From Selenomonadales bacterium (GTDB lineage: Bacteria; Bacillota; Negativicutes; Sporomusales; UBA7701): a stretch of DNA of 32,822 bases. Positions 2,477 through 32,822 of this stretch are shown here, piece after piece (the first letter of the stretch is position 1; the number at the start of each line of letters is the position of its first letter). A model generated the notes under the pieces. It worked only from the letters and a program-made list of their open reading frames with translations, did no database searches and was not told where the DNA came from. The DNA is taken from positions 1 through 32,822 of the forward strand of contig JARKPR010000043.1 of the NCBI GenBank assembly GCA_029975165.1, in the 5' to 3' direction. The translations under genes and the position numbers were made by a program.

Positions 2477-3553
2477 ATGTTGAAACGGTTTGCTTTGCTG
2501 ACGGTCGCGGTGTTCGCGCTGGTGCTGTCGATGCAGGCGGCGATGGCAGCGCCGGCCGGCGGCGCGGAGCTGCCCAGCGTGAAGATCCTGGCGACCGGCG
2601 GTACGATCGCCGGCAAGGGGGCCTCGGCCACGCAGATGACGGGCTACGATCCGGGGGCGATCGGCGTGCAGGTGTTGATCGATGCGGTGCCGGAGCTCAA
2701 GCAGTACGCGAAGGTGTCCGGCGAGCAGGTCGCCAATATCGGCAGTTTCGCGATGACGCACGAGGTGTGGCTGAAGCTGGCCAGCCGCTGCAACGCACTG
2801 CTAGCGCAGGACGATGTGGACGGCATCGTTATCACCCACGGCACGGATACGCTGGAAGAGACGGCTTATTTCCTCAATCTGGTGGTGAAGAGCGATAAGC
2901 CGGTGGTGCTGGTGGGGGCGATGCGGCCGGCGACGGCGATCAGCGCCGACGGGCCGGTGAATATCCTAAACGCGGTCCGGCTGGCCGGCAGCAAGGAGGC
3001 GCGCGGCCGGGGGGTGCTGGTGGCGATGAACGACCAGATAAACGGCGGCCGCGATGTGACGAAGACGAATACGACGCATGTGGAGACTTTCAAGGCGCCC
3101 GAGCTGGGATATCTGGGGTATATCCAAAACGGCAAGCCTTACTTCTATCGGGAGAGCACCCGGCGGCATACGACGGAGAGCGAGTTCGACGTGACGGGGC
3201 TGACGAAGCTGCCGTATGTGGAAATCGTGTATGGCCACGTGAATCACGACCGGGTGGCGGTCGATGCCCTGGTGGCGGCGGGCGTGAAGGGGATCGTGCA
3301 TGCGGGGATGGGCCACGGCAGCATGTTCCCGGTGACGAGGGAGGCGCTGGGCGAGGCGGTGCGGAAGGGCGTCGTGGTGGTGAAGAGCTCGCGGGTGGGC
3401 AACGGCCAGGTGACGCGGGTGGCAGAGGACGATAAGTACGGGTTCGTGGCCGGCGATACGCTGAATCCGCAGAAGGCGCGCGTGCTGCTGATGCTGGCGC
3501 TGACGAGGACGGACGACCCGCAGGAGATCCAACGAATTTTTGACGAGTATTGA
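2477..3553 (+). CDS. Secreted type II L-asparaginase
   Basis: A 358-residue L-asparaginase hydrolysing asparagine (and often glutamine) to aspartate and ammonia. Both catalytic threonine motifs are present: ATGGTIAGKG with nucleophile T43, and HGTDTLEET with T123-D124. The catalytic lysine region follows as VGAMRPATAISADG. Residues 1-25 form a Sec signal peptide (KR, hydrophobic core, AMA-A), so the enzyme acts outside the cytoplasm, as type II enzymes do. A GGGAGGAG ribosome binding site and a TATAAT -10 box (2436-2441) precede it. It is monocistronic, with a terminator after the stop, and convergent with the lysE-like gene. I leave the symbol blank because ansA/ansB naming varies. Confidence 0.93.
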   Translation: MLKRFALLTVAVFALVLSMQAAMAAPAGGAELPSVKILATGGTIAGKGASATQMTGYDPGAIGVQVLIDAVPELKQYAKVSGEQVANIGSFAMTHEVWLKLASRCNALLAQDDVDGIVITHGTDTLEETAYFLNLVVKSDKPVVLVGAMRPATAISADGPVNILNAVRLAGSKEARGRGVLVAMNDQINGGRDVTKTNTTHVETFKAPELGYLGYIQNGKPYFYRESTRRHTTESEFDVTGLTKLPYVEIVYGHVNHDRVAVDALVAAGVKGIVHAGMGHGSMFPVTREALGEAVRKGVVVVKSSRVGNGQVTRVAEDDKYGFVAGDTLNPQKARVLLMLALTRTDDPQEIQRIFDEY

Positions 3554-21997: not shown

Positions 21998-22258
21998 TTT
22001 TTCGAGGTGCTTAAGATCGGCAAACTGAGGGCTTTCGACTAAAATGCAGTCGACGCCGATTTTGCTGATTTTGTCCCAGGGGATGACGATGTCTTCGTTG
22101 CGGCCGAACAGGCCGAGGAAGCGGCCGGGTCCGGGGACGACGATGGCGGTCAGCCGGCCGCTTTCGATGTCGATCTCGATGTCGGTGATGGCCCCCAGCC
22201 GCTTGCCGTCGATGACGTTGACCACTTCTTTAATTTTTAGATCGCTTGTTTTAATCAT
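21995..22258 (-). CDS. YlmC/YmxH family PRC-barrel protein
   Basis: An 87-residue PRC-barrel protein. LKIKEVVNVIDGKRLGAITDI and the ending GVDCILVE are typical of the YlmC/YmxH sporulation family found across endospore formers. The start is ATG 22258 with GGAGGGGG 8 nt upstream. The frame continues to ATG 22327, but that start has no ribosome binding site and lies in the integrated element's attachment site. The element has inserted about 43 bp upstream of this ATG, so the native promoter may be altered. Confidence 0.88.
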   Translation of the reverse strand: MIKTSDLKIKEVVNVIDGKRLGAITDIEIDIESGRLTAIVVPGPGRFLGLFGRNEDIVIPWDKISKIGVDCILVESPQFADLKHLEK

Positions 22259-22300
22259 GGTGCCCCCTCCGCCCTTCCCTGCTTGTTTCGCTAACAGTAT

Positions 22301-22326
22301 ATGAGGGACAAGGGGAAAGTGTTCCA
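22301..22326. other. attL core repeat
   Basis: The left copy of the 26-bp direct repeat contains GGACAAGGGGAAAGTGTTCC (22306-22325). It is identical to the right copy except at 22305. It lies in the upstream region of the PRC-barrel gene. Confidence 0.85.
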
Positions 22327-22425
22327 AGTAAATTTATTAAGGATTTTCGATGTTCACGGATGCCCAATTTTACTGGATTCTTGCTCTTTTATGCTCATTA
22401 AGAATCATCAAGTTTTAACCGTAAT

Positions 22426-22446
22426 TGTCCCAAAAACTGTCCCAAA
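22426..22446. other. Left integrase arm-type site (tandem TGTCCCAAA)
   Basis: Two TGTCCCAAA copies 12 bp apart form a 21-bp block that recurs exactly at 32537-32557. It lies 100 bp inside the left core and directly beyond the integrase stop codon. Confidence 0.7.
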
Positions 22447-22447
22447 T

Positions 22448-23590
22448 TTACAGGCCGTAATAGGCGGCCACGGCCTGGGTTATTGACTCGGTATCACCCG
22501 GCAGGAGGTGGCCGTAAATATCCAGCGTTGTACTTGTTTTCTCGTGCCCAAGCACCGCCGATATTGCTTTGATGTTTAATCCCTGGCTGATCGCCACCGA
22601 AGCGAAGGTATGCCGCAACTGGTGAATAGTCCTATACGGAATTGGCGCCTTGTCCATGATACGGCAGAACCTACTTCCCACCGTATTGGGGTGAATAACA
22701 TCTCCGGTAGGTTCGCAAAATACCAAGTCAAGGTTATTATACGCATCGCCAAGGTCTTTTTTCATCTTCTCCTGCTGCACCTTATGCCATTTCAAAACCT
22801 CTATTAACCGGGTACCAATAGGGATGGTGCGATAAGAAGACTTTGTTTTTAGAGAGCCAAGCACTACCCGCCCCGCTTCCACCTTCGCCTGTTGCCTCAC
22901 GGTTATCCGCTTTTTCTTGAAATCAACATCAACCCACTTTAGTCCAAGAACCTCGCCGCGCCGCATTCCCGTATGTAGCGCCAAAAAGATAATGTTGTAC
23001 ATGAAGCTGCCGGCGCCGGCCGCGTCCAACAGTATTTTGATCTCTTCCTGGTTAAGCGGATTGATCTCCTCTTTTTCCACTTGCGGAAGCTTTAGTTTCT
23101 TACAAGGGTTATTCAGTATAAGCTTATCAATCTCCGCCACGTTGAAGGCGTCGGCCAGTACGATTTTTATTTGCCCTAGGTAGCTCGGGGCAACCTTCTC
23201 CCCTTTTTCGTTGAGAAACTTTTGTATATCTGCCCGCCGAACCTTATCCAAAGACATTTTCCCCAGTGCTGTTCCCTTTATGTGGCAATTAACAATCGTC
23301 TTATAGATCGTATGGCTTTTGATCGAAACGCTGCCTTTTTTATTGACTTCCAGCCAAGTATCCATCCATTCTTGGAGAGTCAGCTTTTTTGCTTTCGGTT
23401 TAACGCCTAAGTCTATCGACTTCAAAAACTCTTTCTTTTTGGACAATACCTCGCCCTGACTCGCTGCCCTGATCGTCGTCCTTTTTAATTCGTCAGTATC
23501 TGGGTCACGGTAGGAAATTTTAAGCCACCACCGCCCATTTGCGGCCTGCATGGGCTCTGTTCCCGCCCCGTTTTCACGCCGTGTTGCCAT
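22448..23590 (-). CDS. int: Tyrosine-type site-specific integrase
   Basis: A 380-residue phage-type integrase. It has an N-terminal arm-binding domain (WWLKISYRDPDTDELKRTT), a SAM-like core-binding domain (about residues 70-165) and a catalytic domain with the full set R210 (HTGMRRGEV), H323-x-x-R326 (HQLRHTF), H349 (GHEK) and nucleophile Y359 (LDIYGHL). It would integrate and, with an excisionase, excise the element through the flanking direct repeats. It is transcribed toward attL, the usual place for an int gene. A GGTGA site precedes the ATG. Confidence 0.96.
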   Translation of the reverse strand: MATRRENGAGTEPMQAANGRWWLKISYRDPDTDELKRTTIRAASQGEVLSKKKEFLKSIDLGVKPKAKKLTLQEWMDTWLEVNKKGSVSIKSHTIYKTIVNCHIKGTALGKMSLDKVRRADIQKFLNEKGEKVAPSYLGQIKIVLADAFNVAEIDKLILNNPCKKLKLPQVEKEEINPLNQEEIKILLDAAGAGSFMYNIIFLALHTGMRRGEVLGLKWVDVDFKKKRITVRQQAKVEAGRVVLGSLKTKSSYRTIPIGTRLIEVLKWHKVQQEKMKKDLGDAYNNLDLVFCEPTGDVIHPNTVGSRFCRIMDKAPIPYRTIHQLRHTFASVAISQGLNIKAISAVLGHEKTSTTLDIYGHLLPGDTESITQAVAAYYGL

Positions 23591-23725
23591 ACCGTCACCG
23601 CCTATCGTTTTCTCTTGTCCCGCCCGGCCGCCTAGTGTACAATAAGGACGGCGGCGGGTTCTGGATGCTCCCGTGTCTGCCTGGCCGGTGTCGCTGTTAC
23701 CGCAGCGCCCGGCCCTTTGATTTTC

Positions 23726-23887
23726 CTAGTCGCCTTTAATGTCCAGTTCCTGACGCAGTAGCCGCTCGACCATCTCTGACACGGAAGTCTTGCGGGCTAT
23801 TGCTTCCTGTTTGGCCTTGATTATTACGTTCTCATCCACATATAAAGTCAGTTTTACAGCGCTTGGCCTTTTCTCTCTTGGTGTCAT
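23726..23887 (-). CDS. Ribbon-helix-helix (CopG-like) DNA-binding protein
   Basis: A 53-residue protein with the RHH layout: basic N terminus, beta strand (AVKLTLYVDENV), helix (IIKAKQEAIARKT) and second helix (SVSEMVERLLRQEL). GGAGGTG stands before the ATG at 23887. No toxin gene is adjacent, so it looks like a stand-alone regulator rather than half of a toxin-antitoxin pair. A palindrome overlaps the -35 of its promoter, which fits autoregulation. The spacer to int (23591-23725) holds GC-rich inverted repeats and no gene. Confidence 0.85.
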   Translation of the reverse strand: MTPREKRPSAVKLTLYVDENVIIKAKQEAIARKTSVSEMVERLLRQELDIKGD

Positions 23888-23906
23888 ACTTCACCTCCTC
23901 AATACT

Positions 23907-23997
23907 ATAATATCCAAATTAAAATTATACGTCAAGACGTAATGTTTAATGCTACGTCTGATAATAACTATTATGTAATCTTGTAATTAAATGTCAA
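23907..23997 (-). promoter_or_regulatory. RHH gene promoters and palindromic operator
   Basis: TTGACG (23930-23935) and TATTAT (23907-23912) are spaced by 17 bp on the minus strand. The perfect dyad TACGTC-AA-GACGTA (23928-23941) covers this -35, and a third TACGTC half-site is at 23953-23958. A further upstream promoter is TTGACA (23992-23997) with CATAAT (23970-23975), 16-bp spacer. Confidence 0.65.
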
Positions 23998-24046
23998 AAG
24001 TCCGCAAACCCTTGTAATTACTGGCTTCGCGGGCTTTTCGTTTTTT
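23996..24046. terminator. Terminator with long loop
   Basis: AAAAGTCCGC (23996-24005) pairs with GCGGGCTTTT (24029-24038) with one wobble, followed by CGTTTTTT on the plus strand; the minus side ends CTTTTG. Confidence 0.55.
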
Positions 24047-24467
24047 ATAATAATTTCTGCCTGTGGATAACCTTCTTTGTCCCGTGCCAGTGAACGGGAA
24101 AGTTCACCGCTGGCGGACATTGAAGGCTACTATTTATGATCCGCAAAACAATGTCCAACCTTTTTCACCCGGCGGCCGCCGGTGCACGACGGAAAAACCA
24201 CGACGCCCCATTATTGCCTAGTGGGTTTTTTACTCGGGGGGTACCCCATGTAGTGCCGGCTCTCGCCATCGCCCGTATAAGCGGTTTTTTTACCCTGCCC
24301 CGTGCGTTCCCCTTCGCCATCACCTTTTCGTGGCTCTGACGGCCTCTGGCGCGGTCGTGTGGTTGTTTCCGTGCCAAAATTTTCTCGCGCGCGCGAAAAA
24401 TATGTTTTGGGAGGACACCTCGCCGGTCCTGGTGGCGCAAAAAGGACATCAATTCCGAGAGACGGGG
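24047..24467. other. 420-bp stretch without a convincing gene
   Basis: This stretch lies between two terminators. It holds a near-palindrome with alternating CG (TTTTCTCGCGCGCGCGAAAA, 24380-24399), a CACCCGGCGGCCGCCGGTG dyad (24166-24184), a hairpin around 24091-24115 and the 12-mer CCTCGCCGGTCC (24418-24429) shared with the candidate RNA region. Minus-strand frames at 24165-24320 and 24211-24492 are open but Arg/Pro-rich and lack good start signals. Confidence 0.5.
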
Positions 24468-24469
24468 GG

Positions 24470-24502
24470 AGGTTAAAAAGAAAACCCGGCATTGCTGCCG
24501 GG
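24470..24502 (-). terminator. Terminator of the three-gene xis-like operon
   Basis: CCCGGCA (24485-24491), loop TTGC, TGCCGGG (24496-24502). On the minus strand the stem is followed by TTTTCTTTTT. Confidence 0.88.
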
Positions 24503-24513
24503 ACATTGACGCG

Positions 24514-24783
24514 CTATTCCTTTGCACTCGCTAACCCGTTGAACGTTTCCGCTGCTAGTTGCAGACCCGCCGCGAAGCCGGCCCGGAAGTACTGGTCGCA
24601 TTCATGGGCGGACTGCAAATTAAAGGCAGATTCAATCTTTAAATACCTTTTTTTGTCCTCCTGCTTCAGTTCTTCTATTACGGCCTTGTCCTCCGGGCTC
24701 GGCACATATGCCACGAAGCCGGGAATTTTCCCCTGCTCTAGTTCATCGGTCAGGACTTTAGTGACTATATCGACAATCTTCAT
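24514..24783 (-). CDS. Hypothetical element protein (89 aa)
   Basis: An 89-residue soluble protein, acidic in the first half and helical (DIVTKVLTDELEQGKIPGF), with a small-residue-rich C-terminal helix (RAGFAAGLQLAAETF). The ATG is preceded by GGAGAGG. It is the last gene of a three-gene operon after the HTH protein and the 165-residue protein, and it ends just before a strong terminator. No domain recognised. Confidence 0.75.
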   Translation of the reverse strand: MKIVDIVTKVLTDELEQGKIPGFVAYVPSPEDKAVIEELKQEDKKRYLKIESAFNLQSAHECDQYFRAGFAAGLQLAAETFNGLASAKE

Positions 24784-24799
24784 TATTACCTCTCCTTCC

Positions 24800-25297
24800 T
24801 TAATTAGCCGCAGCCCATTCCTCGCAATCAGGCACGCCGTTTTCCATGTATTCCCTAACAGTCATTGATATTTCAAGTAGCTTCTTTATTTCGGCATATA
24901 CGGGATTGTCGAGGATATAATTAACCGTGCCCTGCCCTATCATTGCCAGCGCCAGTTCGCTACTAAGGTAGACTATGCCACACAGCTCGCCGTCTTCTCT
25001 CTCGTGGATTACTATATACCGGCCGTCCGGCAGCTTCGCGCAACCCTTTTTCCCGTTTACTGGCAAATACAGGCCGGCGCATTGAAAAAGCAACATGTTT
25101 CCAAGAAATCGGCCGTCATCATAAACATTGACGTATTCGACCAGGCTTTTTCCCATGGGCAAACCCTCCTTCATTTGACTGATTCGCCCTGCCATTGCTA
25201 TAATGAAGCCGACAGGGCTTTGATTGAACGTCGGGGCTCTCGTTACCGGGTCCGGTCGCTGTGACAGCAGCGCCGGGCCTTTGTTTTTTGTTGTCAT
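24800..25297 (-). CDS. Hypothetical element protein (165 aa, or 118 aa from an internal start)
   Basis: A soluble protein with no recognised domain. The upstream start (25297) overlaps the stop of the HTH gene as ATGA and has GGAGG 3 nt before it. An internal ATG at 25156 has a better AAGGAGGG site at 7-8 nt, and the conserved-looking part of the protein (GKSLVEYVNVYDDGRFLG...) begins there. The first 47 residues are low-complexity and may be leader only, so the 118-residue form is plausible. The C terminus is helical and acidic. Confidence 0.7.
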   Translation of the reverse strand: MTTKNKGPALLSQRPDPVTRAPTFNQSPVGFIIAMAGRISQMKEGLPMGKSLVEYVNVYDDGRFLGNMLLFQCAGLYLPVNGKKGCAKLPDGRYIVIHEREDGELCGIVYLSSELALAMIGQGTVNYILDNPVYAEIKKLLEISMTVREYMENGVPDCEEWAAAN

Positions 25298-25482
25298 TCT
25301 CCTCCTCTCTTCAAGGAATCAAGATACCGATTCAGGTCGTCGCGATCAATCCGCCACTCAGCGGCCCGCCCTGTACCCAGCTTGATTCCCTGTAAGCGTT
25401 TTTCGTTCAACCACTTAACGACAGTCCGGGGCTTTACCTTGAGTTCCGCGGCGACTTCCGCCGGGGTTAAGAATTCTCCCAT
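25294..25482 (-). CDS. Excisionase-like helix-turn-helix protein
   Basis: A 62-residue DNA-binding protein of the excisionase/MerR-like HTH_17 type: FLTPAEVAAELKVKPRTVVKWLNEKRLQGIK followed by a beta hairpin (RAAEWRIDRDDLNRYL). This is the length and layout of phage-island Xis proteins. It heads a three-gene operon behind a consensus promoter and overlaps the next gene by 4 nt. It may act as excisionase for the tyrosine integrase or as a regulator; the sequence cannot separate the two. Confidence 0.88.
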   Translation of the reverse strand: MGEFLTPAEVAAELKVKPRTVVKWLNEKRLQGIKLGTGRAAEWRIDRDDLNRYLDSLKRGGE

Positions 25483-25513
25483 TGGACCACCTGCCTTTCC
25501 ATATTCTATAAAA

Positions 25514-25567
25514 ATTATATCTCTTTGTGTTATTTAGTGTCAATATATATCTTTAAATGTAATTTAA
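25514..25567 (-). promoter_or_regulatory. Consensus promoter and dyad for the xis-like operon
   Basis: On the minus strand TTGACA (25538-25543) and TATAAT (25514-25519) are both perfect, with an 18-bp spacer. The perfect dyad TTAAAT-GTA-ATTTAA (25553-25567) sits just upstream of the -35 and may be an operator. Confidence 0.8.
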
Positions 25568-25581
25568 CGTTTACACCCTAA

Positions 25582-25611
25582 GATAAAAAAAGCAGGGGCC
25601 GAAGCCCCTGC
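25582..25611 (-). terminator. Strong terminator closing the candidate RNA region
   Basis: GCAGGGGC (25592-25599), loop CGAA, GCCCCTGC (25604-25611). On the minus strand the stem is followed by a run of seven T's. Confidence 0.9.
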
Positions 25612-25993
25612 CCTTGCGACTCGCGTTCAGGATGAGCGTTCGACGCACATGTCGAACGGCACATTCCTTTTTAGGTTTTCGTACCACAGAACGAAAACCC
25701 CTGCCCCGCTCCGCATCAATGCGGAATGAGGTCAAGTATTTGGCGCCGGATAATTCGCAGGTTATCCGTATAGACGATTGTATTCACTATTCCATAAACT
25801 ACACCCCATATGCGCGGGCCTGGGTGTTACCTGGACCGTCCTCGCCGGTCCCATTGGTTATTCGCAGAAAACTCCACCCTGGGGAGGCTCCTCGGTAGGG
25901 TGTCATGCGCTCGTTACGCGCAAAAATTCCTGCCCCCTCGCCGGTCCTCGTTGGCTTTAGGCAGGCCTTAACCCCTGGGGGATATCCTCCCGG
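25612..25993 (-). ncRNA. Candidate large structured RNA (about 380-400 nt)
   Basis: No convincing minus-strand gene lies here, but at least nine perfect stem-loops are tiled across it and a strong minus-strand terminator follows. Stems include 25637-25658 (CGTTCGAC), 25674-25699 (GGTTTTCGT), 25711-25724 (CCGCAT), 25748-25767 (GGATAA), 25801-25827 (ACACCC), 25833-25851 (GGACCG), 25876-25901 (ACCCT), 25906-25922 (TGCGC) and 25929-25965 (CCTGCC). This density resembles large phage-associated RNAs (ROOL, GOLLD) or HEARO/omega RNAs, but I cannot match it to any. No clear promoter is visible, so it may be processed from the upstream operon. Confidence 0.5.
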
Positions 25994-26221
25994 CTAGTAG
26001 CAATAGCCCCTTCGCGGCTCATCCGGCCAATACAAAGAACACTTGACCACGCGCAGCATAACTTCATCGCCACACTTTGCCTTGACTATTACGCGCCCTT
26101 TTGTATCGCTCGGCCACCCGCACAAGCACCCCCACCCGACGCGCAGGCATGTCCAACATATGCTTTCAGGGACTCGACCATTGCCCTCCAGCGAGCATCG
26201 TTCCAGCGCCATCCCCTCCAC
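25994..26221 (-). CDS. Possible Cys-rich small protein overlapping the 133-aa gene
   Basis: A 75-residue frame with five Cys plus a Trp/Gly-rich centre (CWTCLRVGWGCLCGWPSDTKG) and a plausible beta-rich end (GRVIVKAKCGDEVMLRVVKC). It overlaps the end of the neighbouring 133-residue frame by 133 nt. The region past 26089 reads as coding in this frame only. It may be a real overlapping gene, a frameshifted continuation of its neighbour, or chance. Confidence 0.4.
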   Translation of the reverse strand: MEGMALERCSLEGNGRVPESICWTCLRVGWGCLCGWPSDTKGRVIVKAKCGDEVMLRVVKCSLYWPDEPRRGYCY

Positions 26222-26490
26222 CTCTTGATGAGCGTTCCCCTGTCTCCCGGGTGAAGCTCTGTCTCAATCCATTCCCCAACGATCCTTGTAATCTCACTCC
26301 TCTCATCAATACGAATTAACAGCAGTGCAATACTGTCCGGCCGGCCAAACCCTGTTTTCTGATTCTCCCCGCCGCCGCAAGCAGAATAGCAATTTAGCGC
26401 CATATCGCGCAGGGTATTCCACAAAAGATAGTAACGCGGGTATTCCGCCAGAATCTTTTCTACAGTCTCTTCGCCGGCTTCTATCTGCAT
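26089..26490 (-). CDS. Hypothetical phage-type protein (133 aa)
   Basis: A 133-residue protein with natural composition: helices (EETVEKILAEYPRYYLLWNTLRD), a GRPDSIALLLIRIDERSEI segment and a Trp-rich part (KRWRGWRWNDARWRAMV). Length and style recall small phage regulators located near replication genes, but no family is recognised. The start at 26490 lacks a strong ribosome binding site. A frame from 26638 (110 codons) overlaps its first half and reads less like protein, so translation may begin in that frame and shift. Confidence 0.6.
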   Translation of the reverse strand: MQIEAGEETVEKILAEYPRYYLLWNTLRDMALNCYSACGGGENQKTGFGRPDSIALLLIRIDERSEITRIVGEWIETELHPGDRGTLIKRWRGWRWNDARWRAMVESLKAYVGHACASGGGACAGGRAIQKGA

Positions 26491-26637
26491 GCTCTGCCTC
26501 TGCGCGGGTCCGGTCCTGGGCAGATACGCCGCGCATTCTCAAGCCGTGCTTTTTTGCTTCGGCCGGGTACCGGTACGATCCATGTTGCGGCGCATTCACC
26601 GCGACGGCGGAAATACCGCCAGCACGATAGGCAATCA

Positions 26638-26916
26638 TTAGTCAATTCTCTTCACCTCCAAAATATAGCCCGTACTAGGCGCCAGGTCAGAGGGGAAGCA
26701 GTGCGCCACCCTGTGCCCGCCGTCTGGGGTTTCTCCGTCCCCGCCGCCGTGCCTGTGTTGGCGTCCGCAGAATGGGCAAACGAATTGCAGACTCCAGTAC
26801 TTTGGCCCCTTCGGCCTTGCGGCTGACTGTGGGCGCAATACTGCCGAACAGCCTACAATGGGGATATTGCCCTCATATCCGAGAATGGGCGCCGGGTTTT
26901 GTTTTGTCATCGTCAT
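26638..26916 (-). CDS. Small zinc-finger-like element protein (92 aa)
   Basis: A 92-residue protein with a likely metal site: CPFCGRQHRHGGG (C47, C50, H54, H56) and HRVAHC (H72, C73). AAAGGAGGG precedes the ATG. It is the first gene downstream of the candidate origin on the minus strand and probably begins the small operon that leads into the candidate RNA. No known family recognised; the pattern suggests a nucleic-acid-binding zinc finger. Confidence 0.75.
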   Translation of the reverse strand: MTMTKQNPAPILGYEGNIPIVGCSAVLRPQSAARPKGPKYWSLQFVCPFCGRQHRHGGGDGETPDGGHRVAHCFPSDLAPSTGYILEVKRID

Positions 26917-26937
26917 ACCCTCCTTTCAAAAAAATAT

Positions 26938-26957
26938 AAGACCCCCTACGGTCTTTT
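26938..26957. terminator. Terminator at edge of origin region
   Basis: AAGACC (26938-26943) pairs with GGTCTT (26950-26955); TTT follows on the plus strand and ATATTTTTTT on the minus strand. It probably ends primase transcripts after they cross the iterons. Confidence 0.6.
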
Positions 26958-26958
26958 T

Positions 26959-27200
26959 GGCGTTTTTGGCGTGTCCGCGCCCTTGAAGCCTTATGCCTCT
27001 TGGCTTTGTACGGAAACGCCTTATATTAATTTGGCGTTTCCTTGGCGTTGCTGCTTATTAATTTGGCGTTGCTGCTCTCTTTCGGGAAACGCCAAATTTG
27101 TCTTCGGAAACGCCTAGGAAACGCGTAATTTTTGCATGGCGTTTCCGCCTGACCTCTTATAATTCATAGCTTGATGGCACACGGAAACGCCAGAAACGCC
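26959..27200. repeat. Iteron cluster, candidate replication origin
   Basis: Six perfect copies of GGAAACGCC or its complement occur at 27012-27020, 27033-27041, 27085-27093, 27106-27114, 27138-27146 and 27183-27191. One-mismatch copies are at 26968, 27117 and 27192, and GGCGTTGCT variants at 27044 and 27065. Start-to-start spacings from 27012 are 21, 11, 21, 20, 21, 11 and 21 bp, so sites lie on one face of the helix. Two sites are inverted pairs of the form GGAAACGC[CG]-N12-GGCGTTTCC with AT-rich centres. TATTAATTTGGCGTT is also repeated (27024-27038, 27056-27070). The cluster reaches the stop codon of the primase gene. Confidence 0.75.
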
Positions 27201-29800
27201 TAAATACCTGTATCACCCCCCGAGAATAATTTATCAGCCCACAAAAACAACACGCGGCGAGCTTCGCCGTGTATTTTTTTGAACCTCGCCCGCTCGCGCT
27301 TCCCGGCTATGTCGGTGCCCTCAAGGTACCCGTCCGCGTCAAGGTGTTTCAAGAGCATTTTTTCCGTAACACCGATCTCCCGCCCCTGATCCCGGAAAAA
27401 CATCTGCACGGCCCTGTATGTCGGTCCCGAGAGTAAATATGCGTAACTGTTGTCCCGCCAGCCTATAAATCGCCGCTCGTCTGGCGTCGTAACCGTATCT
27501 GCAACGTTCAAAATCTGTACTTGCCCCGCTGCTCTCATCTCTTTTAGTGCGATCATAAACCTTTCGGCGGGTTTCGATTCCTGCACGGCTGCCGACTGGT
27601 CGGCAGCTAGCTTCTTGAGCACTTCCCACGATTCGCCAACGAGGGAATCCATTTCCGCGGCAGATAACGCTCCGGTTTCATACATAAACTTTGCCCCGGC
27701 CGTTATACCTAATTGAAGCCACGCCATAGCTTCCGGCAGGCGCCCATGCCCTGCATTCTGTGCTTCTTGGCGTAATACCCGGAAAGCATCGCCCATTTTC
27801 TCCGGATCGCCCATCTGTGGCGCCAGCCATTCCAGGTAAGCCCGCATAAACCCGGCCAGTGTCCCGGCACTCGCGGCCCCCTGGCTCTTTGTTAACGCCT
27901 CCAGGTCAACCCCCCCGCGCGGGATTTCTACGGCCAGCATACGGGCCGCGCCGCTCTCGCCCACGTCTGGCAGGTCTTCGCCGGTCACTATACAGCCTCC
28001 GCGCGGGGCATATGCGGCCTTAATGGATAAGTCGGCATTCATGCGCCCCCGGCCGGCTCTGTCGCCGTAGGTCCGAAGTATTGCCTGCGCCTTGCCGGTC
28101 ATGTCCTGGCGCTCTTTGGTACTTGCTACCGGGTGAAAGTCATCCACAATTAATAAACTGTCCTTCAGCATAAAGGACAGTTTTTCTGTATGGTTCCGCG
28201 TGTCTTTGAAATTTGCCGGCAGCGTGTCCCGGCTGAAGTTCCCGAAAAAACTCAGGAACAACGCCGCCAGGCTGGATTTTCTCTGCCCGGTATGGCCGTA
28301 AAGCCATAGAACAAAAGACGGTTCACAATTTGCCCGCCGCAAAATATCGTGTAGCGGCGCCAGAAAGACCATTGCCAGCAGGGGCAATGTCACCTCGCGC
28401 GGCGCCACGTCCAGCACGGCCAGGGCGCCCCTAGCGGCCTCTTTCGCGTCCGGCGCGACTTCCGGCAGGCGGTACCTCCCCAGGACGAGCCCGCCCTCGG
28501 AAAGGTCAACTTGCAAACCGTCCGCTCCAACTGCGCCGCCTGCATGGAAATACGCCCATTTTCCGCCAACACGACGCCACCCGGTATGACAAAATACGAT
28601 TTCTTTCTTGGCGGCCTTGGCCGTCTGTTGAATTGCTACCCGCAGAGTGTCCTTCGTCGCCGTTCCAGCCAACACTAGCGCATCGGCTCCCCATACTTTT
28701 AGCGGCCATGACATACCGCTAAACTCTGCTGCAGGTACCACTCGCGGGGGCAGCCGGCGCCCGCCGGGCAATAGGCCGTCGATCTCAAAACATATGCGGG
28801 TTTCGTCGTCCGCCCCGCTGTCTCGGACTATTTCCCGCTTGATCCGTGCCACGAAGGCGGCGAGTGGTTTCTCCTCTTCGCCGTTATTTGTTGCCCGCTT
28901 TTGGCAAAGTCGGCCCCACTTGTCAATTAGAAATCCCGTCCCGGACAATAGCGCCCTATACTCCGTGTACCGATCCCCTTCCGCGCCTTGTTCCTCCTGG
29001 GGTTCCGCTTCGGGTATATACTTGCCGGCCGACACGGCAATTTTTTGGACTTCGCCAGCTTCTAGCGGCGGGCGGCAGCGTGCCGCGTTTTCACTGTTCA
29101 GTGCCGCAAATATTGCCCCCTCGGAAGCCCCTCGCCGCCGCATCGAGCACGCCAGCCGAAACAGGTAGTCATTTCGCCCGCCCTCCACGACAATTTCGGG
29201 TATCGCGGGGGTTTCTCTTGGCTTATCCCTGGTTATCAGCGCCAGCAGCCACGCGGGCGCCTCGGCCAGTGGCATTTCGTCGGGATGAAATACCGCGTCC
29301 CATTCGTAGCGCCGGCCCGAAATATGCCGGCTAGGAGACGCGACAATATACCCGCCATCGGCGCGAACATCAAGCCCGGGCGCAAGGCGGACGCGGTTTT
29401 TTATAACCCCGCCAGGATGGCGGAATAAGATATGCCGGCCGCCGCCGCCAGTCTGTGCCTCGGGAGTGTCCGGCAGTTGCCCGTAGTCGCCCACTAGGTT
29501 TTCGAGAGATTCTCGTCCGGCCTCTCCGTCAACATCGAGAACAAAAAAACCGGCCTTGGCGCCGGTTACCATGCCGATATTCGAATGAGGCCAGGAGCTC
29601 CACCATTTACGGATTTTTTCCGCGTCAGCCGTGGCGTCTCGCAAGCCGTTTTTTGTTCGAGGATGCTTGCCGGGTGAATCGCATTTACGGCCGCAGGAGC
29701 ACCCGACGCCCTCGGGGTTGTGAAGAGGAATTACGGGCCATCCCCGCGCCGCATACCCTAACGCCGCTTGCATCAGTCTATTGGTATCTGTTTTGTCCAT
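27200..29800 (-). CDS. PrimPol-PriCT-DUF927 replication protein (primase/helicase)
   Basis: An 866-residue replication protein. Residues 10-190 are a bifunctional primase-polymerase domain: CSCGRKC...GKHPR (C34, C36, C40, H46), LDVDG with metal-binding D89 and D91, GGGGRH (H123) and GLDVRADGGYIVASPS. Residues 200-265 are a PriCT-like helical domain. Residues about 340-640 are a DUF927-type AAA+ helicase with Walker A GHTGQRKSS (502-510) and Walker B LLIVDDF (549-555). The C-terminal 100 residues look like a winged helix that could bind the iterons directly downstream. It is probably initiator, primase and helicase for replication of the excised element. Confidence 0.93.
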   Translation of the reverse strand: MDKTDTNRLMQAALGYAARGWPVIPLHNPEGVGCSCGRKCDSPGKHPRTKNGLRDATADAEKIRKWWSSWPHSNIGMVTGAKAGFFVLDVDGEAGRESLENLVGDYGQLPDTPEAQTGGGGRHILFRHPGGVIKNRVRLAPGLDVRADGGYIVASPSRHISGRRYEWDAVFHPDEMPLAEAPAWLLALITRDKPRETPAIPEIVVEGGRNDYLFRLACSMRRRGASEGAIFAALNSENAARCRPPLEAGEVQKIAVSAGKYIPEAEPQEEQGAEGDRYTEYRALLSGTGFLIDKWGRLCQKRATNNGEEEKPLAAFVARIKREIVRDSGADDETRICFEIDGLLPGGRRLPPRVVPAAEFSGMSWPLKVWGADALVLAGTATKDTLRVAIQQTAKAAKKEIVFCHTGWRRVGGKWAYFHAGGAVGADGLQVDLSEGGLVLGRYRLPEVAPDAKEAARGALAVLDVAPREVTLPLLAMVFLAPLHDILRRANCEPSFVLWLYGHTGQRKSSLAALFLSFFGNFSRDTLPANFKDTRNHTEKLSFMLKDSLLIVDDFHPVASTKERQDMTGKAQAILRTYGDRAGRGRMNADLSIKAAYAPRGGCIVTGEDLPDVGESGAARMLAVEIPRGGVDLEALTKSQGAASAGTLAGFMRAYLEWLAPQMGDPEKMGDAFRVLRQEAQNAGHGRLPEAMAWLQLGITAGAKFMYETGALSAAEMDSLVGESWEVLKKLAADQSAAVQESKPAERFMIALKEMRAAGQVQILNVADTVTTPDERRFIGWRDNSYAYLLSGPTYRAVQMFFRDQGREIGVTEKMLLKHLDADGYLEGTDIAGKRERARFKKIHGEARRVLFLWADKLFSGGDTGI

Positions 29801-29851
29801 ATACTCACCATTTCCGCCGCCTCCCCGCGGCTTTTGTTCTGCATCCGCTCG

Positions 29852-30019
29852 TTACTCAGCGCCGCGGAGAAATGCTTCTAAGGCCCAGCCGGGAATCAGA
29901 ATCCGCCGCCCGGCGCGGACAGCGTGGAGTTTGCCCTCGTTGATAAGCTTTGTTACCGTGTTGCGCGCCAACCCTGTAATACTCTGCACTTCCTTAACCT
30001 GGTAGATAGCTTTTTCCAT
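29852..30019 (-). CDS. AlpA-like/excisionase-type HTH protein (55 aa)
   Basis: A 55-residue HTH_17 protein: IYQVKEVQSITGLARNTVTKLINEGKLHAVRAGRRILIPGWALEAFL. GGAGGTAAAGC precedes the ATG at 30019. It lies 51 nt upstream of the primase start on the same strand and is probably its operon partner. In phage islands such proteins act as excisionase or as activators of the replication module. The element has a second protein of this class (25294-25482), so the two probably divide these roles. Confidence 0.85.
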   Translation of the reverse strand: MEKAIYQVKEVQSITGLARNTVTKLINEGKLHAVRAGRRILIPGWALEAFLRGAE

Positions 30020-30058
30020 TTTGCTTTACCTCCTATTTGTGTTTTGGGCATAAAAAAA

Positions 30059-30102
30059 GCACTCATAATGAGTGCGAAATAAATGCCGGTCAATGACCGG
30101 CA
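30059..30102 (-). promoter_or_regulatory. Replication-operon promoter under two perfect dyads; also terminator
   Basis: On the minus strand TTGACC (30088-30093) and CATTAT (30065-30070) are spaced by 17 bp. Perfect dyads TGCCGGTCA-A-TGACCGGCA (30084-30102) and GCACTCAT-A-ATGAGTGC (30059-30075) cover the -35 and -10 exactly. The second is followed by seven T's on the minus strand and would also terminate the regulator gene ending at 30110. Confidence 0.6.
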
Positions 30103-30109
30103 GTATTAA

Positions 30110-30802
30110 TTACATATTTTCCAATTTCCACCTCCTCAGTTCTTCAAGGTCTCTTTGCCGTTGCGCTTCCTTTTCCTCTGGCGTCATGCTCTCTTTCTCT
30201 CTAATACTAGCAAATAAATCGTCAATCGCCTTTGCTCGTTCAGCTATTGCCTCTGGAGAAGAATAACGCCGAAAATTATCCATAACCTTGTTTTCTAATG
30301 CCTTCATAAGTTTAACTTCGGGACGCCCAGGATCATTCTCGTAAAATTCACCAACCAACCGCAGCCATAAAATCGAAGCGAACCATAGGTGTTCAGCTGT
30401 CCCGGACTCAACGGCATTTAATGCGTCCTCGCGTGCTTTTGCGACTCTTTCTGTCTTAAGTTTAAATCCACTATCATCAATTAAGCCGTTTATCATTCGG
30501 AAGGCAGTAGCTACGTGGGCCGGCGTTTCTTCTGCATAGTCGGTTATTTTTCCATGTCCCTTTCCCCCGTGCCCCCGCCACGGAGTTGGAATAAGACGTT
30601 TTTTTTCGTAGTTTCTCAAAGTTTGTTGTGTAACCTTAAATCCTTTTGCATCCAGTTTGCTCAATACTTCCTCAAGTCTCACGAGGCGCCCCCCTATCCC
30701 AAAACCTTTAACCCGGGGCTTCGATCTTTTTTTTGCCAACATCGAATTATAGTAGACATTGGAATAAAAGTCAGCATCCGCCAAGTCCTTAATTTTAGAC
30801 AC
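30110..30802 (-). CDS. MerR-like regulator of the element
   Basis: A 230-residue protein with a MerR-type HTH at about residues 38-85 (VRLEEVLSKLDAKGFKVTQQ then TLRNYEKKRLIPTP) and a charged helical C terminus rich in Glu/Lys/Arg (coiled-coil-like). GTG 30802 is the preferred start, with GGGAGAGG upstream and a promoter plus operator before it; the frame stays open to 30910, but that part overlaps the promoter. It is divergent from the cargo genes and upstream of the replication operon, the position of a master repressor in phage islands. The effector is unknown. Confidence 0.82.
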   Translation of the reverse strand: MSKIKDLADADFYSNVYYNSMLAKKRSKPRVKGFGIGGRLVRLEEVLSKLDAKGFKVTQQTLRNYEKKRLIPTPWRGHGGKGHGKITDYAEETPAHVATAFRMINGLIDDSGFKLKTERVAKAREDALNAVESGTAEHLWFASILWLRLVGEFYENDPGRPEVKLMKALENKVMDNFRRYSSPEAIAERAKAIDDLFASIREKESMTPEEKEAQRQRDLEELRRWKLENM

Positions 30803-30813
30803 ACCTCTCCCGC

Positions 30814-30871
30814 TATATAAGCAAAAGACATCTTTGCTTATATAATATATCCGCATAATCAGTTTTGTCAA
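30814..30871 (-). promoter_or_regulatory. Regulator promoter with perfect 12-bp operator
   Basis: TTGACA (30866-30871) with a -10 at 30844-30849 (TATATT, 16-bp spacer) or 30842-30847 (TATTAT, 18 bp). The perfect inverted repeat TATATAAGCAAA (30814-30825), 7-nt spacer, TTTGCTTATATA (30833-30844) covers the -10 edge and the transcription start. Confidence 0.75.
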
Positions 30872-30929
30872 GAAGTTGCACGACGTTATTTTTAAAATTA
30901 AGTATGTCATTTATGACGCCGCTTATTAC

Positions 30930-30958
30930 TTGTCCATTTATTTCCATTATGATATTCT
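30930..30958 (+). promoter_or_regulatory. Cargo promoter 1 (extended -10)
   Basis: TTGTCC (30930-30935), 17-bp spacer, TATTCT (30953-30958) with TG one base upstream of the -10. Almost the same 45 bp precede the second cargo gene. Confidence 0.75.
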
Positions 30959-30973
30959 GGTGTCGAAAGGAGC

Positions 30974-31414
30974 GTGAACACCTTGTCAGAAGAAACCAAA
31001 AAGCCCTCTCTCGGAGTGCAAATTTTTGCCGTGATTATTACGGCAGCCGTGTTTTTCTACCTCTTTTCGTCAATTAACAGCGTAAAAACGTCTACACCAA
31101 CGCCACCCCCCGCAAAGGCTAACGCGATTGACGCCCTCCAAATTCAAGAAGGATGGACGTGGGAGTTGAGCCGCAGTAATAATTATTCCTATATTAAAGG
31201 CAGTGTTAAAAACATCGACACAAAACCAATTTCATACTTTGAGGTTCGGGCCGAATACCTTGACGACAAAGGGAATGTCCTGGACACTTCCTACACCAAT
31301 TCTGGAGAACGAATAAACCCTGGGGCGCAAAAAAGATTTGAAATCATGCACAAGCATAGCGACGATTTTATTAAAGCGCGAATAATGGTTTCCAAGGTAG
31401 TATTTGCTAAATAA
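30974..31414 (+). CDS. Membrane-anchored FxLYD-domain protein
   Basis: A 146-residue protein with one N-terminal transmembrane helix (about residues 14-34) and an extracytoplasmic part. After a Pro-rich linker, residues 60-145 (YIKGSVKNIDTKPISYFEV...) match the FxLYD beta-sandwich pattern. GTG 30974 lies very close to the AAAGGAG site; TTG 30983 has better spacing, so the first three residues are uncertain. It is the first gene of the cargo block and shares a promoter type with the next gene. Function unknown, but envelope location is likely. Confidence 0.8.
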   Translation: MNTLSEETKKPSLGVQIFAVIITAAVFFYLFSSINSVKTSTPTPPPAKANAIDALQIQEGWTWELSRSNNYSYIKGSVKNIDTKPISYFEVRAEYLDDKGNVLDTSYTNSGERINPGAQKRFEIMHKHSDDFIKARIMVSKVVFAK

Positions 31415-31442
31415 AAAAATCCCCCGGCGTAGCTCCGGGGGG
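31411..31442. terminator. Hairpin after cargo gene 1
   Basis: CCCCCGG (31421-31427) pairs with CCGGGGG (31435-31441). An A-rich run before it makes a T-run only on the minus strand, so it is best at blocking leftward transcription; rightward termination is uncertain. Confidence 0.6.
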
Positions 31443-31458
31443 TAAATCGACATCAAGC

Positions 31459-31487
31459 TTGTCCACTTATTTCCAATGTGGTATTCT
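31459..31487 (+). promoter_or_regulatory. Cargo promoter 2 (near-copy of promoter 1)
   Basis: TTGTCC (31459-31464), 17-bp spacer, TATTCT (31482-31487) with TG one base upstream of the -10. CTTGTCCA-TTATTTCCA and AAAGGAG-G are conserved with promoter 1. Confidence 0.78.
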
Positions 31488-31509
31488 AAGGCCAAAAGGA
31501 GTGATTTGG

Positions 31510-32145
31510 GTGAGAAAAGCCATTTTTCTACTGGTCTGCCTATTCGCTTTTCCCTTGATATGTTCCGCAGAACCCATTCAGCAACAGCCAGTATTCTTTG
31601 ATACTAGCAACACCAAGAAAGTAGTAGGCATTTTTCTTGAAGCTCCCGTAACCTATGTCAATAATGAAAAAGTTAGGATACTGGTCCCTGAAAAAACGAT
31701 CCCACTCTTCCCGCGCCATCTGTTTACCGTGTTACCCTTCGACAAGTCTTCCATGGCTTTACGGACTTACAAAGAAGACAATCGCATGGTTATGAATCAA
31801 TACTACTCGCAGCCCGTCAATCGCTCCGATATTCAAAAAATTGCCAAGGAGCTTAAAGCTGACTATGCTTTGTTTATCATCATATCCAACGGCCCGCCGC
31901 GCGTCGGTGCCGGCCTATTCTCGGTTTCGTTCCGAACTACTGTGACTTGCGACGTAAGGCTTCTGGACGTAGAAACCGGCCAATACCTGGCTAGTAGGGA
32001 AATCGTAAAAGACGGCCAAAGCACAGCCGTTTATATGGGCGTACCGTCGTTTGATAACGCCTATAATGAGGCACTAGAAAAAGCGCTGTCTGAACTTACT
32101 CTTGATACGGCAAGCCTGCTAAAGACCAAGGAAAAAACGGAATAG
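31510..32145 (+). CDS. Secreted/periplasmic protein of unknown family (211 aa)
   Basis: A 211-residue protein with a clear signal peptide (RKAIFLLVCLFAFPLICSA, cleavage after CSA at residue 20, or a lipid-less type). The mature part contains IQKIAKELKADYALFIIISNG and LLDVETGQYLASREIV followed by NEALEKALSEL, a pattern of LpoB/TolB-N-like periplasmic folds that bind partners in the envelope. GTG 31510 is chosen because AAAGGAG lies 9 nt upstream; the frame continues to 31459 without a ribosome binding site. It is the second cargo gene, and neither its partner nor its function is known. Confidence 0.78.
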   Translation: MRKAIFLLVCLFAFPLICSAEPIQQQPVFFDTSNTKKVVGIFLEAPVTYVNNEKVRILVPEKTIPLFPRHLFTVLPFDKSSMALRTYKEDNRMVMNQYYSQPVNRSDIQKIAKELKADYALFIIISNGPPRVGAGLFSVSFRTTVTCDVRLLDVETGQYLASREIVKDGQSTAVYMGVPSFDNAYNEALEKALSELTLDTASLLKTKEKTE

Positions 32146-32154
32146 AAGCAACGA

Positions 32155-32178
32155 AAGCCCCCCGGCCAGCGCCGAGGA
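32155..32178. other. Imperfect hairpin after cargo gene 2
   Basis: CCCCGGC pairs with GCCGAGG across CAGC with one mismatch. Its first 17 bases resemble the 32480-32505 hairpin (GCCCC-CGGCCA-CGCCG). No T-run follows directly. Confidence 0.4.
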
Positions 32179-32225
32179 GTTTGCCCCTCTTGTTTTTATC
32201 TTCCGAAACAACTCGAGGTGACATC

Positions 32226-32474
32226 ATGAAAGAAGCTGGTATCGTAAGAAAACTCGATTCTCTTGGAAGGATCACTCTTCCGGTCGAAATCAGGAAAGGG
32301 TTTAATTTACAAGATGGTGCCCCGATTGAAATCCTCACTTATAAAGACCAAATCGTTTTCCGAAAGTATAGGTATGCCTGTATCTTTTGTAACATCACGA
32401 AAAATGTTGAGATATATAAGGGTAAGGCAGTATGCTCTAAGTGTAGGATCGCCATGGAAAACAGTGACATATGA
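32226..32474 (+). CDS. AbrB-type regulator with C-terminal zinc ribbon
   Basis: An 82-residue protein. Residues 4-48 are an AbrB/SpoVT swapped-hairpin DNA-binding domain (GIVRKLDSLGRITLPVEIRK, closing with IVFRKY). Residues 52-73 hold two knuckles CIFC and CSKC that make a zinc ribbon, a combination found in short Firmicute regulators. GAGGTGA precedes the ATG. It is the last gene before attR and could be co-transcribed with the secreted-protein gene. It probably regulates element or host transition-state genes; the target is unknown. Confidence 0.87.
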   Translation: MKEAGIVRKLDSLGRITLPVEIRKGFNLQDGAPIEILTYKDQIVFRKYRYACIFCNITKNVEIYKGKAVCSKCRIAMENSDI

Positions 32475-32479
32475 ACATA

Positions 32480-32505
32480 AGCCCCTCGGCCATCGCCGGG
32501 GGGCT
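32480..32505 (+). terminator. Hairpin after AbrB gene
   Basis: AGCCCC-T-CGGC, loop CATC, GCCG-G-GGGGCT. A good GC-rich stem, but no T-run, so its role as terminator is probable rather than certain. Confidence 0.6.
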
Positions 32506-32536
32506 TCGCTCGTTATATGAGGTTATACACTCCAAC

Positions 32537-32557
32537 TGTCCCAAAAACTGTCCCAAA
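32537..32557. other. Right integrase arm-type site (tandem TGTCCCAAA)
   Basis: An exact 21-bp copy of 22426-22446 in the same orientation, 61 bp inside the right core repeat. Confidence 0.7.
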
Positions 32558-32562
32558 AGGGA

Positions 32563-32599
32563 AAATACTGTGTTCTGAATTGCCAGGAACACAGTATTT
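32563..32599. other. Perfect 13-bp hairpin between arm site and attR
   Basis: AAATACTGTGTTC (32563-32575) pairs perfectly with GAACACAGTATTT (32587-32599) over an 11-nt loop. It is AT-rich and has no T-run; it may be a protein-binding dyad of the recombination site. Confidence 0.6.
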
Positions 32600-32618
32600 A
32601 TAAGGGTTTTTCAAATCC

Positions 32619-32644
32619 ATGAAGGACAAGGGGAAAGTGTTCCA
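32619..32644. other. attR core repeat
   Basis: The right copy of the 26-bp repeat, differing from attL only at 32623. It lies 16 bp beyond the stop codon of the ferredoxin-like gene. Confidence 0.85.
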
Positions 32645-32660
32645 GGGAAAATTTCTAATC

Positions 32661-32822
32661 TCACCCGGCGGCGGTATTGGGCTTGGCGCAGGAAGGGCAA
32701 GCCTGTTCGACGGCTTCTTGGCTCTCGGTGCCGGGGACGATGCCCAGCACCGCCGGGCGGATGGCCTTGGTCGGACACTTGGCCAGGCACTTGGCGTCGG
32801 TGCAGTTGTTGGCCACGCACAC
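32661..32822 (-). CDS. Ferredoxin-like 4Fe-4S protein, 3' part
   Basis: The last 53 codons of a gene that continues beyond the window. The piece has a cluster motif CVANNCTDAKCLAKCPTKAI, close to C-x4-C-x3-CP ferredoxin ligands with unusual spacing of the first Cys, and a C-terminal CPSC pair. It probably belongs to a 4Fe-4S electron carrier or ferredoxin-like subunit. In the uninterrupted chromosome it would lie upstream of the PRC-barrel gene on the same strand. Confidence 0.75.
   Translation of the reverse strand: MCVANNCTDAKCLAKCPTKAIRPAVLGIVPGTESQEAVEQACPSCAKPNTAAG

Follow-up and report, generated by a model that had tools for sequence, protein, structure and literature searches.

What do the short repeats crowded directly behind the gene of a primase-helicase (Rep) in a Selenomonadales contig do, and which part of Rep recognises them? 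The stretch of DNA analysed, called the window, is 32,822 nucleotides long and carries such a gene. We conclude that positions 26959–27200 are probably the replication origin, of the P4/SaPI kind, of the mobile element in which they lie, built of two head-to-head half-origins that would be bound by the winged helix of Rep, with one ring per half. This reading and three alternatives were treated as mutually exclusive, and the odds given to the four were scaled to sum to one. In the lines below, site coordinates give the start of each site and orientation refers to GGAAACGCC on the plus strand of the window.

27200 to 29800, minus strand: rep, encoding a Prim-Pol domain (aa 13–184), PriCT_1 (aa 204–261) and a divergent DUF927/SaPI-Rep-like helicase with a predicted C-terminal winged helix (aa 264–866)
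26959 to 27200, no strand: candidate replication origin, 12 nine-bp sites forming a 242-bp mirror-symmetric array of two half-arrays of six (from site scan and symmetry)
27085 to 27200, no strand: half-array 1, adjoining the rep stop, with sites 27192+, 27183+, 27138-, 27117+, 27106+ and 27085+ (template score 39 of 40)
26959 to 27073, no strand: half-array 2, mirror of half-array 1, with sites 27065-, 27044-, 27033-, 27012+, 26968- and 26959- (template score 36)
27183 to 27200, plus strand: outer pair of tandem sites spaced 9 bp, of which the first overlaps the rep stop codon (27200–27202)
26959 to 26976, minus strand: outer tandem pair at the other end of the array, degenerate
27126 to 27137, no strand: 12-bp spacer from the reversed site to the inner triple, rich in AT (83%) and perhaps a site of melting
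27021 to 27032, no strand: mirror counterpart of that spacer, 12 bp and 100% AT, perhaps likewise a site of melting

The exact word GGAAACGCC occurs six times in the window, at 27012(+), 27033(-), 27085(+), 27106(+), 27138(-) and 27183(+), all inside the array and confined to 180 bp directly 3′ of the stop of rep, which is read from the minus strand. A position-weight scan blind to spacing found the 12 sites at 26959–27200, together with a weak stray site about 100 bp inside the rep gene. Counted on the gene strand from the rep stop, the sites start at 2+, 11+, 56-, 77+, 88+ and 109+ in the first half and at 129-, 150-, 161-, 182+, 226- and 235- in the second. The spacings are thus 9, 45, 21, 11, 21, (20), 21, 11, 21, 44 and 9 bp with orientations ++-+++ and ---+--, a mirror image exact to 1 bp or less. 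Equal symmetry was reached in 24 of 100,000 random reorderings of the spacings, in which orientation was not counted and the stray site was left out. The two halves abut on a centre of 11 bp (45% AT), and the AT-rich 12-bp spacers sit inside each half. The sequence-only reading had correctly named the six perfect sites, both AT-rich 12-bp stretches and start spacings of 21, 11, 21, 20, 21, 11 and 21 bp, which are those of the inner eight sites; it had missed, or seen only in part, that all 12 sites are mirror-symmetric, that an outer pair lies at each end (26959/26968 and 27183/27192) and that the outer gaps hold a degenerate direct repeat of about 22 bp.

If one mismatch is tolerated, the word is found 18 times window-wide, as compared to a shuffle mean of 16.9, which is background; the signal therefore lies in the clustering of the sites. 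In the 300 bp behind the rep stop the commonest 7-mer has eight copies, a count reached in none of 300 shuffles, and 16 control stretches of the same locus have three or fewer. First-order shuffling of the 206-bp array, repeated 20,000 times, gave some 9-mer at least six times in 45 cases. A chance origin of the array was rejected, as both exact words and 7-mers cluster more than in shuffles. No match to the array was found in a nucleotide search of phages, no RNA family reached the gathering threshold in 22000–32822, and the window contains no tRNA.

Folded as a single strand, 254 nt of the array region give a single long, imperfect hairpin of −60.9 kcal/mol (z −8.6), and none of 200 shuffles is as stable. 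This fold would suit a reading in which a DNA hairpin or cruciform is what functions and the words merely form its stem, and a precedent lies in the same place, 3′ of a Prim-Pol/helicase gene, in the stem-loop of about 100 nt proposed as the pRN1 origin (PMC4234260, of which only part was available). We consider this highly improbable: any mirrored array folds so by construction, the gap elements are direct rather than inverted repeats, and the P4 origin and two related loci with one full half (L003, L005) keep the half geometry yet cannot form the whole hairpin.

The array also takes up the larger part of the interval from the rep stop to the start of the next open reading frame (26916; 92 aa). 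Such a position would be expected if the array were not an origin but an operator or silencer at which Rep, or some other protein of the element, regulates rep or the 92-aa frame. Initiators often regulate from iterons. We give this reading little credence; regulation alone leaves the conserved symmetry unexplained, the 12-site mirror array has the half geometry of the annotated P4 origin, and the spaced site pattern, the one pattern that was searched genome-wide, occurs only at the array.

The array and rep sit in an integrated mobile element of about 10.4 kb, defined by the following features.

22448 to 23590, minus strand: tyrosine integrase of the element
22301 to 22340, no strand: left attachment-site repeat, 40 bp, at the 5′ end of a gene that we take to be PRC-barrel-like
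32619 to 32658, no strand: right attachment-site repeat, with 85% identity to the left one
22423 to 22446, no strand: left tandem 12-bp repeats, probable integrase arm sites
32534 to 32557, no strand: right tandem 12-bp repeats, probable integrase arm sites

Among its ten open reading frames, compared with Pfam and PHROGs, the integrase and Prim-Pol matches are clear and a MazE-like match lies above the cut-off; MerR-like and CsgG-like matches fall just below it, and five frames have no match. The PICI gene set (divergent repressor, phage interference, terS) was not recognised among these ten frames, five of them unmatched. From the regulator-like gene to the right attachment repeat (30974–32474, plus strand) the frames encode a protein of 146 aa, one with weak resemblance to CsgG and a MazE/AbrB-like DNA-binding protein; these may be cargo. 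A nucleotide search of the element against plasmids gave no match. In one genome of the same genus (G004, locus L113) the same attB is occupied by an integrase-bearing element with similar arm repeats, and a phage baseplate-like protein is encoded a few kilobases beyond that attB. A second (G002) holds a seemingly similar element; the sequence past attB resembles that of the window by eye, and the contig ends within about 1 kb. In a third (G003) attB looks unoccupied, but the far flank is not homologous, so that an empty attachment site is not demonstrated there.

Rep has 866 residues. The Prim-Pol domain is matched by PF09250 (1.8e-46), and the C-terminal helicase module of about 600 residues is barely detected by Pfam (DUF927, 17.0 bits against a cut-off of 22.6). 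DUF927 is matched at E values up to 1 by seven of the 12 members of the helicase alignment, the window included, and its gathering cut-off is passed by the relatives L093, L095, L097 and L010. As its own score lies below the cut-off, the Rep of the window is a structural relative of DUF927 that is not filed there by sequence. The predicted model of the helicase module (pLDDT 90.3) has SaPIbov1 Rep (Foldseek E 1e-16) and SCCmec Cch (9e-14) as the nearest solved structures. VIA superposes it on SaPIbov1 Rep (8tch_B) with Z 24.7, 462 residues aligned and an rmsd of 5.0, and on Cch (5dgk_A) with Z 25.0, 486 residues and an rmsd of 5.8; the next row is an MCM with Z 15.1. On the model, the module is a structural relative of both proteins over nearly its full length, C-terminal winged helix included. 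The C-terminal 128 residues, modelled alone, are likewise predicted to form a winged helix (pLDDT 92.7). The best VIA match of this domain is the C-terminal domain of SaPIbov1 Rep (Z 10.1), which is also the best Foldseek match (E 1.4e-3); two uncharacterised or DUF1528 proteins (Z 9.6 and 9.4), an oriT-binding accessory protein of the pCW3 relaxosome (Z 9.0) and Cch (8.0) were matched as well. The P4 alpha domain is not among the structure matches listed for the C-terminal domain, which excludes nothing.

Natural swaps between parts of Rep indicate which part reads the words. In G003, locus L002 is 92% identical over aa 1–274 (Prim-Pol), has a DUF3987 helicase instead, and contains no GGAAACGCC in 20.8 kb. 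Locus L003 (G014) is 59% identical over aa 264–858, has a DnaG-type N-terminus, and carries a similar word and one full half of the layout. In L005 and L006 a separate DnaG-like gene lies just upstream. These combinations show the array to track the helicase/winged-helix part and not the primase; G003, which lacks the motif and shares the primase part only, suggests that the word is read by the helicase/winged-helix part. Over all pairs of loci, the similarity of iterons and proteins is only weakly related (Spearman 0.14–0.28, Mantel p 0.04–0.17), contrary to the strong covariation expected. The six closest pairs stand out with seven to nine of nine iteron positions in common, and seven of 99 more distant pairs also share at least seven positions when a register shift of up to 3 is allowed.

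A search of genomes, viral contigs and phage records for matches to a helicase-module profile gave 65 distinct loci including the window (L001); a locus was counted when the last 200 residues of the matched frame were distinct and the stop was present. The rep protein alone gave no pattern match in viral contigs; the helicase alignment as a query gave 31 loci. A 7-mer occurring at least four times in the 300 bp behind the stop was found in 19 of the 65 loci as compared to 19 of 1135 control windows taken from these loci. The remaining 46 loci have no such 7-mer behind the gene, among them the close relatives L007, L028, L013 and L014. A word-free search for a tandem pair 8–10 bp apart plus an inverted copy was satisfied by 15 of the 65 (9 bp in 14, 8 bp in L015), and for each of these 15 none of 60 shuffles was as good.

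The layout observed behind these genes recurs with other words. The site word is GGCGTTTCC in the window, TGCGTTACC in L003, GGCGTTACC in L005 and L006, TTGCCCACC in L008, TTGCGGCCA in L093, CCGGTACAA in L095, CCGGGACAT in L097, TCTGTTACC, TCAGTTACC and TCAGTAACC in L069, L073 and L075, respectively, and GATGTGTCG in L015. The same layout with 12 sites each is found in L006 (9, 45, 21, 11, 12, (40), 12, 11, 21, 45, 9), L008 (9, 45, 22, 10, 12, (40), 12, 10, 22, 45, 9), L097 (9, 44, 22, 11, 11, (43), 11, 11, 22, 44, 9) and L095, in which one gap is 55 bp, about 11 longer; the span is 242–246 bp in the window, L006, L008 and L097. It is kept in part in L003 and L005 (one full half, the other truncated), L093 (13 sites), L069, L073 and L075. 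L015 has ten sites, L009 and L011 have four clustered sites (two inverted pairs), and the clusters in L010, L062 and L068 depart from the layout.

Several further arrangements were observed. In L012, L029, L009 and L011 the array is minimal and consists of two inverted tandem pairs with a spacing of 8 or 9 bp; L012 and L029, which are nearly the same sequence downstream of the gene, have only the Prim-Pol part in common with the window, and the helicase of L012 is D5-type. In L015/L030 (G058:C243) rep is split over three reading frames and the array behind it is still symmetric. In L082 a mirrored cluster of 12 words (TGTCGGG/CCCGACA; 2730–3040) with the tight triple toward the centre lies upstream, not downstream, of rep; it is a half-array of opposite polarity.

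A tree was built from 40 of the 44 loci with a profile score of at least 200, four broken or partial ones being left out, with L082 scored as lacking an array and L085 as having one. On this tree the array label has to change five times, as compared to a mean of 13.1 after shuffling, and full mirrored arrays are spread over several separate groups. The spacing, whose conservation in relatives had been proposed as a check, is kept with other words in some relatives that retain the helicase, but L007, L028, L013 and L014 have no array behind the gene. Loss of the motif in a close relative that keeps the primase had been named as an outcome that would refute the origin; it does occur in G003, yet that locus shares the primase part only. 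The position directly behind the stop of a primase-helicase is as had been described, and the C-terminal winged helix assumed there is predicted, with SaPIbov1 Rep as its nearest match. The proposal of an origin and its comparison to SaPIs are borne out within the limits of sequence and structure prediction, binding and replication being inferred.

The geometry was also scored without regard to the word. The template has five sites (++-++) with steps of 8–10, 43–46 or 54–56, 20–22 and 10–12 bp, and a maximum of 40. Ten of the 65 loci, the window included, score 37–40 behind rep as compared to one of 500 control segments, and that sole segment at or above 37 is the cluster of mirrored words that precedes rep in L082. 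With a narrower template, 14 of the 65 loci score at least 33 as compared to none of 260 shuffles. Over the 108 overlapping segments of the window the array scores 39 and nothing else exceeds 33. Ten streptococcal satellites, hand-picked from the matches listed, score 34–39 with the extended template; eight reach at least 35 as compared to none of 255 shuffles (one shuffle at 34). The extension (8-bp pair, 54–56 gap) was made after Javan564 and Javan614 had been seen, so the fair test is with the other eight satellites, of which six reach at least 35. Seven phages with related primases (Sfi21, which has an annotated ori, TP-778L, LP-101, GBSInt2.2, Carvaje, Vibrio 1.270 and Abigail) score 29–33, not above shuffles; the experimentally annotated ori of Sfi21 scores 32 and does not fit.

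The outer gaps of both halves hold a direct repeat of about 22 bp in most full arrays. In the window its copies are degenerate.

27151 to 27172, minus strand: gap element copy 1, 22 bp, matching copy 2 at 14 of 22 positions when both are read in one direction (six of 300 shuffles as good)
26985 to 27006, minus strand: gap element copy 2, 22 bp

Identity between the copies, out of 22, is 21 in L093, 20 in L097, 19 in L008, 15 in L006 and L095, 14 in the window and 12 in L015 (not significant). In seven of ten streptococcal satellites at least 19 of the 23 positions of the L095 copy, AAAGCCAGTATTATCAAGGGTTT, are matched. Matches of at least 16 to the consensus have a density of 0.35/kb within 600 bp around the rep stop (15 matches) as compared to 0.026/kb elsewhere (11 matches) in 72 loci, a count that includes L095 and L008, the source of the consensus. 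The gap elements of the window match the L095-derived consensus at fewer than 16 of 23 positions, and inspection of the P4 gap by eye revealed no convincing gap element. A similar element of about 22 bp lies near the iterons in L008, L095, L119, L130, L132 and L133 despite their different iterons, and is common to elements of Negativicutes/Bacillota and streptococcal satellites. The gap element may be a site for a host factor, a primase start or a melting site.

As known phage satellites and some relatives show the layout with quite different words, the array is very probably the replication start of the element. In the proposed mechanism, the C-terminal winged helix of Rep would bind the 12 sites as monomers. 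Each half would present a tandem pair (9 bp), a gap of about 44 bp, one reversed site and then three sites at 21, 11 and 21 bp; its six sites, near one helical face, may nucleate one helicase ring. The two rings would face each other, melt the AT-rich 12-bp spacers first and unwind outward, and the fused primase would lay the primers. Binding, origin function, the hexamer count (six sites for six subunits), the place of melting and bidirectional replication are all inferred without bench data. Helical phasing at 10.7 bp gives R 0.77–0.90 in seven arrays (0.23–0.80 at 10.5 bp); 10.7 bp is the best of six periods tried, and there was no shuffle control. Six sites per half fit the window, L006, L008, L097, L095 and the L082 cluster; L015 (10) and L093 (13) do not fit exactly, and L009 and L011, with four clustered sites, do not fit. 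Against an origin stand the absence of an array from most relatives, the lack of an AT-rich centre and the weak overall covariation of iterons and protein.

A broader proposal, to which we give somewhat short of an even chance, is that P4, SaPI-Rep-like and D5-like initiators share one word-independent geometry that sets a hexamer, that its doubled form is an MCM-like loader of double hexamers, and that the gap element has a function of its own. The geometry would be a half-array of about six sites with a pair (9 bp), a gap of 44 or 55 bp, a reversed site and steps of about 22 and about 11. The word would change freely with the winged helix, the spacing would be held by the shape of the ring, and the gap element would be more conserved in sequence than the words. 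If this is true, a sequence-blind spacing rule would find origins of mobile elements with their matched initiators, the swapping of origin words would be explained, and a small bacterial model for the head-to-head placing of two helicase rings would be at hand; the abutting 6 + 6 layout makes the stoichiometry of the rings directly testable.

Among the literature matches listed, judged by title and the start of the abstract, we found no description of a shared spacing rule or gap element; subscription journals are largely missing from them, and absence is unproven. In the part of PMC4234260 available, ORF904 of pRN1 is described as combining Prim-Pol, helicase and winged helix, with an origin just 3′ of its gene that consists of a stem-loop of about 100 nt without iterons. 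The domains and the position of the origin are alike in the window; the window, however, has iterons, with a hairpin possible, and so does not qualify as pRN1-type. SCCmec Cch has the helicase fold in common with the Rep of the window (5dgk, Z 25.0). According to the accessible portion of PMC7581432, Cch2 binds downstream of its own gene through its C-terminal domain, at a site of three 5-nt iterons, and priming is left to a separate polymerase pair. The origins inferred here for streptococcal satellite phages (Javan) give half-array template scores of 34–39 in ten of ten, where 34 is as high as the best shuffle, but their words surround a longer AT-rich stretch (in the sequences printed), and the helicase of Javan564, the one tested, is of the D5_N/DUF5906 type.

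SaPI/PICI origins (SaPIbov1 Rep, SaPI5 PriRep1) lie 3′ of rep and consist of two iteron sets flanking an AT-rich region, as far as the available parts of PMC6092414 and PMC7581432 go. The iterons of the window likewise follow the initiator gene immediately in two sets, here mirrored halves of six, and the modelled helicase fold, C-terminal domain included, matches SaPIbov1 Rep. Unlike these origins, the window has no AT-rich region between the sets.

The closest geometry is that of P4. The annotated type 1 repeats of its ori (9310-, 9320-, 9331-, 9353+, 9396- and 9406-) and the window half each comprise six sites in the orientation ---+--, with spacings of 10, 11, 22, 43 and 10 in P4 and 21, 11, 21, 44 and 9 in the window. 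The template scores are 40 of 40 for the P4 ori and 39 for the window, which thus qualifies as having a P4-type half geometry. Both initiators are fused primase-helicases; the alpha primase of P4 is TOPRIM-type (PMC4234260, seen in part), whereas that of the window is Prim-Pol. The P4 ori consists of a single half, about 2.3 kb upstream of alpha, and its type 1 repeat word is GTGAACA as compared to GGAAACGCC in the window. Directly 3′ of alpha, much as the array follows rep, lies crr, which bears the ori words, is annotated as required in cis and separate from ori, and scores 34. By analogy, the array could be an incompatibility, partition or accessory region needed in cis, with replication starting elsewhere in the element. 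We consider this unlikely, though it deserves to be kept in mind; the half geometry is fitted best by the P4 ori and not by crr (40 as compared to 34), and the cluster scan found no other 7-mer cluster of more than three copies in the element. An origin of the P4/SaPI kind remains the preferred reading. Two iteron sets 3′ of rep are already in print for PICI origins (available part of PMC6092414), and the P4 repeats are annotated in its record; beside these systems the array is a variant of known iteron origins, and the surprise is the word-independent geometry.
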